From Nannobrachium achirus (Eukaryota; Chordata; Actinopteri; Myctophiformes; Myctophidae), in assembly GCA_963921795.1 (NCBI GenBank), contig OY997639.1, forward strand, positions 49,095,395-49,159,394: 64,000 nucleotides of DNA, read 5' to 3'. Of this stretch, positions 40,901 to 46,900 are shown piece after piece. Position 1 is the stretch's first letter. Each line of letters opens with the position of its first letter. The notes below the pieces were generated by a model, which was given only the letters and a program-made list of their open reading frames with translations, had not been told where the DNA came from and made no database searches. Position numbers and translations under genes: made by a program.

Positions 40901-43900
40901 TACAGTTACAATTACAGTAGGTGCACAGTTTGTGAATGTGAACAAAGCTTCACAAGCCACAATGTGGTGTTCAGTGGAGAACGTGTATGGCATCATCCCC
41001 ACATGTTAACTAGTGCAGAGGATCCCAAACTTTACCTTGCTGCAGCCACCATATCCTATACTTCCTATTCTATATTAACTAGTACCAGTAAGACTCCCTA
41101 ATCGGGAGATAAGCGACCGTTGGTCGCTTATCTCCACAAATAGGCCAAAAGTTTGTTTTACCAATTATCAAGACATACGGGCAGTTGACAGTTTGCCATG
41201 GTTACTCATTGAAGTTGAATCTCCATATATGGAGATAACCTACGCATCACACTAAGTCTGACCTCACCAGTCCATATTTGGGCATGAGCAACTTATGTCT
41301 CCATATATGTAGATATGATGACATCACACAGTCCTCAGCCGATGATGTGGCGTGATGTCATACAATACACAAACGAGCCCTACAGTATAAAGGGGCAATT
41401 CTTGCCAGGAAAGAAGCATTTCTTCGACTCAGACCTTATCGCCAGGGTTGGCTTATAGCAGCTGTCGGTAGGACCATATATGGATTCTGTTAGTGTGGAT
41501 CTCCTAACAGGGCATCATCTGGGATGCAATCCCTTTTATGCCCATATATGGAGATCCCTAACATAATCCCTTTCATGCCCATATATGGAGATCCCTAACA
41601 GAATCCCTTTTATGCCCATATATGGAGATCCCTAACAGCATCCCTTTTATGCCCATATATGGAGATCACTAACAGCTAACAGAATCCCTTTTATGCCCAT
41701 ATATGGAGATCCCTAACAGAATCCCTTTTATGCCCATATATGGAGATCCCTAACAGAATCCCTTTTATGCCCATATATGGAGATCCCTAACATAATCCCT
41801 TTTATGCCCATATATGGAGATCCCTAACAGAATCCCTTTTATGCCCATATATGGAGATCCCTAACAGAATCCCTTGTATGCCCATATATGGAGATCCCTA
41901 ACAGAATCCCTTTTATGCCCATATATGGAGATCCCTAACAGAATCCCTTTTATGCCCATATATTATGGAGAAATCCCTGCTCTGAGTATCTGACATCAGT
42001 GTGATGTCACCTGTTTATGCCCATATATGGAGATCCCTGCTCTGCGTATCTGGTTGCTATGGTAAACAGTTGGTTGCTAGGGTAAAAAAACATGGTTGCT
42101 ATGGTAAACAGTTGGTTGCTAGGGTAAACAGTTGGTTGCTAGGGTAAAACCATGGTTGCTAAGGTGGTTGCTAACGTACACTAACAGACCAGCAACAACA
42201 GACTGTTGCCACAGCAACGTACACAAAGGTTTGTGTACACATGTGGTGTGATGTCATACTGATGCGGAGATATGAGCAGGGCAAAGGTGTGACGTGTGAC
42301 GTGTGACGGACGGACGGACGGACGGACGGACGGCCGGTGGAGGTTTTCATAGTAAACTGCTCCCTGACGGTCGCAATGACGCCTCAGGGCGACAAGCGAG
42401 GTCACGCCATGTCTTTGCCATCTGGCCAGTGATGTACGGTATATCTGACCATGTACTGTATATGGAGATATGCTGTGAGAGCACAAAAATGCTTACTCAG
42501 TTATTCGTTATGTGTCTATGACATCTGACATCATACCCTTTTATGCCCATATATGGAGATCCCTGTCTGTAGAACCAGCCACACAAATATGGTCTGTCTT
42601 GGCCATCTGTCTTGGCCATATATGGATTCTGTTAGTGTGGTATGTGGCCAATGTGGCCTAATACCGGTATGGTCATTCCCATAGGAAGTCCTATTACATA
42701 TGGGCTTAATATTGTGATGTCAGAGCAGCAAACCCATAGACCGTAAAAAGGTGTATACGTCCAGAGGGACGGAGTCAGATGTGCCGTTTCACATACTAAA
42801 CTGCGACCTTCTGTCGCAATAAAAGACAGGCGGCAGACAGGCGGGTGGGTGGACCTCTCACGCTCATGTCACCATAACTCAGCCATAACCATACCAGTAA
42901 GATGCCTAAGGGCGAAAAGCGACCTCGCCCTAAAGGATGAGGTCGTGCCATGTCTTGGCATCGGACCAGTTACCCATATATGGAGATCCCTGTAATGGCA
43001 GGGACAACCAAATCCCCTTTATGCCCATACGGTATATGGAGAAAAGGAGATCCTTGTGATGCCAGGGGAACCAAATCCCTTTTATGCCCATATATATGGA
43101 GAGCCCAGATGTCCACATCACTGTGACTCTGTGACACATCACTGTGACTCAGATGTCAGAGCGTGAGAGTCAATCAACAAAAAAGATAAACGTTACCCAT
43201 ACGTACGTGCATCTAACCTCAATGTGTCGTCATGGCATCAGGCTAAAAAAAAGCTGTCAGCTGCATATATGGGCACAAAAGGGGGCATCCCCAAAATATA
43301 TGGCATGCCCATGACATTTTTGAGCTGTGCTAACGGCTCCTACATCTGGCTTTGTGTGTACCGTATGTCCGTCCGTCCGCATGTCCTTCTATATGTCCCG
43401 CACAGGGCTTTTTATGCTTTTATTGATAGGACAGTAGACTGACAGGAAATGGGGGGAGAGATGGGGACTGACATGTGGCAAAGGTTGTCCGGATTAGCAA
43501 TGCCTAAGTGGTATGCGCCTGGACCAGTAGGCCAGCGGTCGCCCTGGGTGTGATTTTCTTTTTAAACATGTAGACTAGTGTGGTGATGGTCTATGCCTCC
43601 TTTGACCAAAGGGAAATAGCGATCTTTAGAAATACTTCACTGACTGGAACTATGGTATCCTAAACATTATCGGAATATTAATGTGAATACATAATCAGGA
43701 GGGAAATGCTCATGGGTATGGTCATGTACAGTATGTGTTCTTCTGTCTTTTTTTTAAATGCTGCCGCTGGGAGCTGAGCTCCAAGAATTTATTATACATT
43801 CATGCAAATTGAAAATAAAGTCTATTCTTCCATTCTATTCATGTGGAGTATGATGTTTAATGACAATTGACTGCTCATCTCTCAGTCTCATAAAAGAGTT

Positions 43901-46900
43901 CAGGACCAAGGACAGTGGTCCTTGCAAGAACATCCGATGCATTTTAATTTGTCATGTACTATCTCATTCTCTTGTTTCAATGTTTCTTTGACCAATGTCA
44001 CTGACAGCTTAATGAAAGCAGTGAACTCCCTGAACCCACTAAAACGGTGTCTATGGACGTGTATCGATTGGTCTACTTTTGAGGGGACATACCGGCGTAC
44101 ACAGAAACATGCATAAACACTGTGGGAATACTGTTCTCGACTGCTTGTCCCCTGCCATGCCATAAGAAGCTCATACATGATCTATAACTGGGTCAGGTAC
44201 TGTAGAGCAGTGGTTCTCACAATGGAGTCTGGGGATGCCACAGGGTCCTTGAGGGGGTTCCAGCTAAATTAGTGATAGGTAATAAACAAATAAGACCCTT
44301 ACCGGTCTGTAACTGTGAGAGTGTACAAAAGTAGAAACCTTACAGGTCCATTTAGTTCCATTTGTACACACACAGAGTTATTATTACCAGTAAGACTCCC
44401 TAATCGGGAGATAAGCGACCGTTGGTCGCTTATCTCCACAAATATCACAGCCTCCACCTCTCACGTCATACGGGCAGCCATAGTTACACCTGGAATGTTG
44501 AATCTCCATATATGGAGATAACCTACCCATCACACAAAGTCTGACCTCACCAGCCCATACCTGGGCATGGACGACTTATATCTCCATATACGGAGATGGC
44601 CATATATGGAGATACGATGACATCACAGAGTCCACAGCTGATGATGTGGCGTGATGTCATACAATACACAAACAAGCCCTATATAAAGGGGCAATTCTCA
44701 CCAGGGAAGAGAGCATTCCCCACTAGCTGAGTATCTTAAGATGGTTGGATGTGATGATAAGCCACAAATAGGCCAAAAGTTTGTTTTACCAATTATCAAG
44801 ACATACGGGCAGTTGACAGTTTGCCATTGTTACTCATTGAAGTTGAATCTCCATCTGAATCCCTTTTATGCCCATATATGGAGATCCCTGCTCTGAGTAT
44901 CTGACATCACTAATCCCTTTTATGCCCATATATGGAGATCCCTGCTCTGAGTATCTGACATCACTAATCCCTTTTATGCCCATATACAGTATGGAGATCC
45001 CTAACAGAATCCATTTTATGCCCATATATGGAGATACCTGCTCTGAGTATCTGACATCACTGTGATGTCACCTGTTTATGCCTAAATATGGAGATCCCTG
45101 CTCTGAGTATCTGACATCACTGCGATCTCACCTGTGATGTCACAGTGACACATCACCTCAGTATCTGTGATGTCACAGTGACACATCACCTCAGTATCAG
45201 GCGTTACACGTATACATTGAGCAGGGCAAAGGTGTGACGTGTGTGACGGACGGACGGACGGACGGACGGACGGACGGACGGCCGGACGGACGGACGGCCG
45301 GTGGAGGTTTTCATACTAAACTGCGACCTTACGGTCGCAATTATGGAGGTCTGTGGCCTAATGCATACCAGTAAGACTCCCTAATCGGGAGATAAGCGAC
45401 CGTTGGTCGCTTATCTCCACAAATAGGCCAAAAGTTTGTTTTACCAATTATCAAGACATACGGGCAGTTGACAGTTTGCCATGGTTACTCATTGAAGTTG
45501 AATCTCCATATATGGAGACATAAGTTGCTCATACCATAGCAACCATGTTTTTTACAGGGCCTGGGATTGATGACATCAGAAATCTCCATATATGGGCATG
45601 AAAGGGATTTTGTTTCTGGAAATATGTCTGTGGGGTGCCACATTTGGAATAAAACACTTACATCACACATCTGGATATCCATACAGCCCATCTAGTTTGC
45701 CTGTGTCCATTTATGCCCATATATCTGATGACATTGGGACACTGATCTCCATATATGGGCATAAAACTTATGTTAATTAGTAAAGCCTGGGGATCTCCAT
45801 ATATGGGCATGAGGGGTACCCTAAAAGGGCATCATCTGGGAATAGCAAATATAGTTATCCTAGAAAGTGAAAATCTTACATCAAAGGCCATAACTACCTA
45901 CCTACCACCATACTGCATTCCTCATTAAACTACCTACCAGTAAGATGCCTATAGGGAGAAAAGCAAAGGGCGAGGTTGCACCATTTCTTGGTCTTCTGGC
46001 CAGTGATGTATATCGGACCATTTAACCATATATGGAGACATCTGGTACCCAAAGATATTCACAGATATGGGCTTAATATTGATGACATAAGGGATCTCCA
46101 TATATGGGCGTAAAAGGGATTTGGTTCCCCTGGCATCACAGGGATCTCCATATATGGGCATAAAATGGATTTGGTTACCCTGGCAACACGGGGATCTCCA
46201 TATCTCCATATATGGGCATAAAAGGGATTTGGTTCCCCTGGCATCACAGGGATCTCCATATGGGCATAAAAGGGATTTGGTTCCCCTGACATTACAGTGA
46301 TGTCAGTGGCTGGTTCTACAGAGGGGATCTCCATTTATGGGCATAAAAGGGAATGTATGTATGATGATGTCAGATATCATAGACGTCATAGGACTTTCAC
46401 ATAACGAATAACTGAGTAAGCATGTAAACCCGTAAAATCTATATTTGGGCATGGCTGATTTATGACCTCATCATGATGACACGAGCAAACACAGCTGAAT
46501 TGTATAAATGATCAGTGCAGAAACCAACAGAAGTATTTGACCAAGACTCTTCGATTTAAACATCAACAAAGGTGTGACGTTTGTTGATGGTCACAAAGGT
46601 GTGACGGACGGACAGACGGACGGACGGACGGACGGACGGACGGACGGACGGACGGACGGACGGTGGAGGTTTTCATAGTAAACTGCTCCCTGACGGTCGC
46701 AACCAAACCGGGGGTCCTTGAAATTATTAAGTCGGAGAACTACTCTCAGATTTTCCCTGCCAGTCTGCACATTTGAAACCACCCTTCTGCCCCTTGCTTC
46801 TCTAACCTTTGGGTTACTGCTACCCACAGCAAGATGACGTGATTCAAGATTCATAGAACATGGCCTAGGCATTCGACAAGTCTTGTTGAATATCGACATT

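Follow-up and report, generated by a model that had tools for sequence, protein, structure and literature searches.

The window analysed here, a 64-kb stretch of contig OY997639.1 within the 1.66-Gb assembly (564 contigs) of the myctophid fish Nannobrachium achirus, carries a family of short repeats that hold no genes and share hairpin-bearing ends (Table 1). We found four exact CAGTAAGACTCCCTAATCGGG ends (at 41086, 44388, 45369 and 56156) where 100 shuffles gave none, and five GGTGGAGGTTTTCATAG-type cores with at most three mismatches, compared with a shuffle mean of 0.2 and no shuffle among 100 that attained five. Looser patterns recovered six CCAGTAAGA ends and seven hairpin ends in the window, with an extra hairpin end at 42819. 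An earlier note on this DNA had proposed a cluster of repeat copies with shared ends, and these copies are real. Genome-wide, the 21-mer of one end has 24,082 exact matches and the 17-mer of the other end 5,697, and a reversed-pattern control has zero; with four exact 21-mers per 64 kb, the window is denser than the genome, where the mean is about one. We are confident that the family consists of non-autonomous rolling-circle elements of Helitron2/Helentron type, resembling HINE and DINE elements, a class that the earlier note had named as the closest model and that the anatomy, the borders and the absence of target duplication now back.

Read on its own strand, the element begins with TTGCGACC as part of a palindromic repeat, written TTGCGACC(GTCA)GGTCGCA, and continues with GAAAACCTCCACC, a GTCC microsatellite and tandem repeats. 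On the 3′ side, a second palindromic subterminal repeat is followed by the palindrome CTCCCGATTAGGGAG and then by TCTTACTGG, and the terminus reads ACTGG/T, where the slash marks the border. The two termini are not symmetrical: the 5′ repeat sits right at its border, the 3′ repeat some 29 nt in from the other. The 3′ palindrome, CTCCCTAATCGGGAG, lies 9 nt from the border, and its pattern with the stem left free has 23,850 matches in the genome. We fixed the direction of the element because the order of its parts is that of HINE-Mo and Cg_HINE; the copies had at first been read on the opposite strand. The ACGG-type microsatellite reported beside the hairpin was borne out by a repeat scan, and the copy at 15.8 kb also carries a tandem repeat of about 130 bp.

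Some older copies carry the same 17 bp at both subterminal repeats in inverted orientation, as GCGACCGTCAGGTCGCA on the 3′ side (locus L068) and TGCGACCTGACGGTCGC on the 5′ side. GCGACCGTCAGGTCGCA and the older 5′ repeat are exact reverse complements of each other, and the GCGACCGTCAGGTCGCA form is present in both five-letter arms in 15 of the 100 older 3′ repeats listed. HINEs are expected to have inverted repeats of at least 11 bp common to both ends; here these measure 17 bp in some older copies and are shorter in other copies. The family rule published in PMC4067079 asks for identical subterminal repeats of at least 11 bp and for 80% over the last 60 bp. In the young 5′ copy the palindrome has been lost. 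Copies also adjoin one another: the span between 45368 and 46702 is nested or composite, because a second-type 3′ end sits inside it at 45937, and at locus L054 the 5′ end of one copy is joined directly to the 3′ end of the next, an arrangement that rolling-circle tandem products would show, as would insertion at a re-made site.

Table 1. Family copies, ends and internal features in the window; the strand is that of the element's own 5′ to 3′ direction.
Feature	Position	Strand	Basis and remarks
Complete copy, 1292 bp	41085..42376	-	both ends by pattern; flanks A left, TGA right
Palindrome CTCCC-TAATC-GGGAG	41094..41108	-	9 nt from the element's 3′ border
3′ subterminal palindromic repeat, stem 14 bp, loop GTT	41105..41135	-	folding z -5.77 (41085-41134)
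Internal tandem repeat, 37-bp unit, 11.6 copies	41528..41963	-	repeat scan
5′ hairpin end of another partial copy, TGCGACCTTCTGTCGCAA	42796..42819	-	sequence; flank TAA
Second-type 3′ end, CCAGTAAGATGCC, distinct hairpin AGGGCGA/TCGCCCT	42894..42953	-	sequence and pattern; A precedes
Complete copy, 954 bp	44387..45340	-	both ends by pattern; flanks A left, TTA right
GACG/ACGG microsatellite adjoining the 5′ end	45245..45301	-	repeat scan
5′ subterminal palindromic repeat TGCGACC-TTAC-GGTCGCA	45322..45339	-	1 nt from border; folding z -5.55
Span bounded by a 3′ end (45368) and the 5′ end that follows (46702)	45368..46702	-	flanks A left, CCA right
Second-type 3′ end within the 45368-46702 span	45937..45996	-	looser pattern
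Complete copy, 842 bp	56155..56996	-	both ends by pattern; flanks A left, TAA right
Older copy	15783..16437	-	border 16437, with the 5′ end preserved; flank CAA; CCAGTAAGA at the extreme 3′ end replaced
Older copy, 5′ hairpin end TGCGACCTACGGTCACA with one stem pair broken	20672..20703	-	flank TAA; other end not recognised
Inverted copy, 5′ hairpin end with a single stem mismatch	50489..50515	+	flank TAA

The borders were defined by an empty-site comparison, run within sequence fetched from this one genome. We joined the left and right flanks of 46 end pairs and sought them in the fetched sequence with three differences allowed; the fetched loci had been picked by exact core match, with the window added, a few of them are duplicates of one insertion, and some of the end pairs combine ends from different copies. 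Pre-insertion sites were recovered for five insertions at four loci (one at L006, two at L008, one at L058 and one at L074), and L001 and L091, which gave only loose flank matches, were left out of this count. None of the five empty sites has duplicated target letters, a single A being ambiguous between element and host, and they place the limits of the element at CCAGTAAG to GGTCGCAA in the orientation of the earlier note. The L006 span holds another internal end, L007 is a repeat of the L006 insertion, and the target of the L074 insertion is the end of another copy.

The flanks reveal an extended insertion motif. Among the 46 fetched 5′ flanks, the third letter past the border is A in every case, the second is free and the first is T in 36, C in 8 and A in 2, so that in element direction the target T follows A in 36 cases, G in 8 and T in 2; all 43 fetched 3′ flanks have A next to the border. 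These fixed letters belong to the host site, because the L074 insertion shows so. Genome-wide, the fixed A accompanies 4,535 of 4,582 exact young-type 5′ ends (another letter in 47) and 2,504 of 2,681 exact older-type 5′ ends (another letter in 177), and an A adjoins 22,865 of 22,991 exact 3′ ends (another letter in 126). The insertion target in element direction is TNR^T, with the caret at the point of insertion, and it is mostly A^T (36/46 of the fetched flanks and 75/100 among the young-type matches listed); the T at -3 varies about as little as the T at +1. In a family sampled this well, the insertion motif of Helitron2-type elements can be read from thousands of copies.

Many of the exceptions appear to have one origin. 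Among the 100 matches listed of the 177 older-type exceptions, 56 have the flank TTT, mostly clustered on contigs C3, C4 and C15. These TTT-flanked ends probably represent one insertion that was duplicated, because the pair of units retrieved from C3 and C15 agree at 98.6-100% identity along the main stretches that they share, in the copy as well as its surroundings. The older 5′ ends with this flank follow one another on the same strand about 9-53 kb apart (with some larger gaps) on the three contigs, and we considered and rejected head-to-tail arrays of autonomous elements; each of the two units is a short copy within a duplicated repeat, with no stop-free run of 120 codons in 2.1 kb.

The family is a new one of a known kind, and what stands out in it is the extended target motif, together with the broken pairs in the 5′ hairpin of its young subfamily. 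Mite HINE elements with the same order of parts (HINE-Mo) and DINE-1, as described in excerpts of PMC4067079, share with it subterminal inverted repeats close to the 5′ terminus and internal to the 3′ one (palindromic in HINE-Mo), a 3′ palindrome 8-35 nt from the end, microsatellites or tandem repeats that some copies carry, and the lack of coding capacity and target modification. They differ in their TT dinucleotide or T-rich target, where ours is TNR^T, and in a 3′ subterminal repeat 38-60 nt from the end, compared with about 29 nt here, and the ACTGG 3′ end also sets the present family apart. The Cg_HINE elements of the Pacific oyster, in the portions of PMC7492417 that describe them, have a left module with a subterminal repeat and its inverted repeat, a GTCC-type microsatellite in several, central satellite-like tandem repeats, and a right module with subterminal repeat and palindrome; the host is another and the insertion sites are oligo-T, and the likeness is drawn from the described order of parts. 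FoHeli1 and FoHeli2, Helitron2 elements of Fusarium oxysporum, likewise carry hairpins and inverted repeats at both termini and insert after TNAT, equivalent to our motif in its TNA^T form, although they start with TC, end with ATTTT and encode a Rep-helicase (PMC5148889, in part). The TNR^T motif therefore has a precedent in their TNAT. Palindromic subterminal repeats at both ends, which had seemed unusual at first reading, are in fact described for HINE-Mo (PMC4067079) and for FoHeli1/2 (PMC5148889) in the same excerpts.

Several observations weigh against the assignment to this class. The target TNR^T is not the TT dinucleotide or T-rich site published for Helentron HINEs, and the 3′ end CTGG is like that of Helitron1, the 5′ TT not. 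No autonomous element with the ends of the family, the Rep-Helicase partner whose search had been suggested, was found in the stretches searched, which stop short of the Helentron termini. Finally, 38 of the 46 end pairs had no second copy of their flanks in the fetched sequence, a result that in itself neither supports nor contradicts the assignment. We file the family under the wider Helitron2 group because neither the TT target of Helentron HINEs nor the 5′ TC of Helitron1 is found in it; the targets of other Helitron2 elements (TTTT then T or C) and of Helentrons (TT), as given in part of PMC5148889, do not fit either. Four end strings had no match in the literature texts searched, a search of texts and not of Repbase or Dfam entries, and the family may already stand in one of those collections. 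The 21-mer had no exact match in viral contigs, and a 20-mer match in a contig titled as archaeal was taken as chance, with no other part of the element there.

The mechanism best supported by the anatomy is a trans-acting Rep-helicase that works on one strand and is stopped by the 3′ palindrome. Such an enzyme would nick the 5′ border beside the palindromic subterminal repeat, one strand would be peeled off until the 3′ palindrome and the terminal ACTGG act as a stop, and this strand would then be joined into a host TNR^T site without duplication of target letters; both the single-strand rolling-circle transfer and the enzyme responsible are what we infer from the elements. The last letters of the element with the next host letter, TGG/T, also fit TNR^T, a fit with odds of about one in eight by accident, and terminus and target may represent the same nick signal. 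We tentatively envision, as a possibility that we would not yet favour, that a single nick signal TNR^T operates at the target and at both borders (TNR/TT at the 5′ junction and TGG/T at the 3′ end), that insertions re-make target sites, and that the palindromic 5′ end is dispensable for efficient spread. If so, insertions that re-make sites at their own borders would favour nested and head-to-tail clusters such as that at 41-47 kb, and in its ends the family would be a hybrid of Helitron and Helentron.

The earlier note had also held that the stems vary in sequence but stay paired, implying that the terminal stems are selected as structures, with both arms changing together and any stem sequence serving. 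We consider this unlikely, even though paired variants do occur in the window: GCAACC/GGTTGC (15.8 kb) and GCGACT/AGTCGC (16.4 kb) are real, whereas a third pair listed with them, GTGCCC/GGGCAC at 20.1 kb, is not at a recognisable family end, and the number of variants is no more than chance gives. Compensatory changes were counted at places on contig C1 that were picked without regard to the stem, in each case the first 100 listed: of 3,447 for the 5′ hairpin and of 1,860 for the older 3′ subterminal repeat, both compared with shuffles, and of 23,850 for the 3′ palindrome, read by eye. The 5′ hairpin yields 3 compensatory cells where shuffles average 1.65 (22% of shuffles attain this count), with 655/700 cells paired compared with 654.0 in shuffles, the commonest form on both arms in 53/100 and 34 of 62 one-sided changes at the two CpG pairs. 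For the older 3′ subterminal repeat the figures are 8 against 5.4 (attained by 11% of shuffles), with 415/500 cells paired compared with 415.3; all five inner pairs are standard in just 31/100, and 54/100 have one C-A mismatch. The 3′ palindrome shows a stem change in 10 of its 100 places and a compensatory one in none. Compensatory cells are thus slightly above the shuffle means in two samples, neither excess being significant, and a handful of decayed copies can mislead on covariation, since CpG decay yields a few paired changes by chance.

The young subfamily also speaks against the need for paired stems. The 5′ form with more exact copies, the young type (TGCTCCC; 4,582, compared with 2,681 for the older TGCGACC type, in exact-match counts that favour young copies), has two broken pairs opposite GGTCGCA and yet has spread widely. 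The same combination was found in 30 of 40 exact-core loci, with L052 being of the TGCGACC type, in a sample chosen through a core often absent from older copies. Four of the five window ends tested fold more stably than their own shuffles (z -5.8 to -3.8), and the TGCTCCC/GGTCGCA end (42376, 46702) folds no better than shuffles (z -0.36). Helraiser, in the excerpts of PMC4778049, uses its 3′ hairpin as a terminator and keeps about 90% of its activity with an exchanged stem, an experimental point in favour of structure over sequence. Selection for some hairpin at the 3′ end is possible, because the sampled places are decaying copies that say little about selection acting on source elements and because the second-type 3′ end at 42894 has a different hairpin.

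That the repeats are canonical non-autonomous Helitron1 elements (5′ TC, 3′ CTRR, A^T target) seems to us quite improbable. Their ACTGG terminus fits CTRR, most of their targets are A^T, and Helraiser and canonical Helitrons are likewise described, in part of PMC4778049, with a CTRR-like 3′ end, a palindrome about 10 nt upstream (the terminator there) and an A^T-type target. The Helitron1 hairpin is placed 10-12 nt upstream of the end, and here CTGG is seen with a palindrome that ends 9 nt from the border. However, the 5′ end TTGCGACC begins with TT and not with the TC of those elements, whose termini lack inverted repeats in the same excerpts; hairpins and inverted repeats at both termini are Helitron2 features in the portions of PMC5148889 that treat them, and the target T at -3 varies about as little as that at +1. 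Foldback or cut-and-paste DNA transposons with hairpin ends, of the miniature inverted-repeat transposable element (MITE) kind, are hardly credible here: the inverted subterminal repeats, the high copy number, the lack of coding capacity and the original naming of the related bivalve element Pearl as a MITE all recall them, but the five empty sites lack target-site duplications and the termini are asymmetric.

Candidate sources of the enzyme are plentiful in this genome. A profile search with PF14214 returned 245 candidates, all 150 of those scored lying above the cut-off and many having open frames of more than 2,000 aa. The Rep motif IEFQARGSPHLHG, in the Helentron form given in an excerpt of PMC4067079, is present at L049-L051, which belong to one clade; L049 and L051 combine PF14214 with PIF1, and L049 also has Exo_endo_phos. 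The partner search covered the upstream stretches of ten PF14214 loci (L039-L048), three further stretches of one clade and two more upstream stretches (L092 and L093). Family ends lie near Helentron genes in a single clade (L044, L050 and L051). L044, the sole one of L039-L048 with such an end, has an inserted copy behind which another 5′ end follows, and L050 and L051 have the end sequence only, followed by another repeat; the upstream stretches of L092 and L093 contain no family end. We consider it likely that one old insertion sits just upstream of the gene of that clade, because the three loci have the flank ACATACATGTA in common; L048, a distant relative, lacks it. This old copy is a neighbour of the Helentron gene, and its position does not speak for a partnership.

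At L044:3914 and L051:6321, a second repeat starting AAAGCTGCAAGCAGC, itself palindromic, adjoins the family ends and probably represents a further family of this kind. At C9:8.18-8.27 Mb and C14:25.23-25.43 Mb, Helentron genes from a single clade form same-strand series 23-50 kb apart, as tandem or segmental copies. The loci with L092 and L093 are 98.8% identical over 4.4 kb, up to the edge of the sequence examined. Together with L041, L043 and L047, they are Helitron-related genes on C9, C12 and C4 with open frames of 2,816-3,116 codons, and the C12 and C4 loci share 95-99% identity over about 9 kb. The scanned part of L041 includes an OTU protease domain, and it also matches a Pfam entry that takes its name from the N-terminus of a herpesvirus tegument protein.

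Elsewhere in the window, positions 12177-13981 hold four nearly identical 449-bp tandem units (99% match), and positions 20972-21063 hold an inverted repeat made of CTAAAATTGGAACGATACAGAGAA and its reverse complement at a spacing of about 45 bp. Minus-strand open frames, for example at 18211-18552, 35937-36266, 51836-52072 and 60181-60552, resemble by eye the CUB/sushi exons of one long gene, and the repeats would then sit in introns of this CUB/sushi-like gene.

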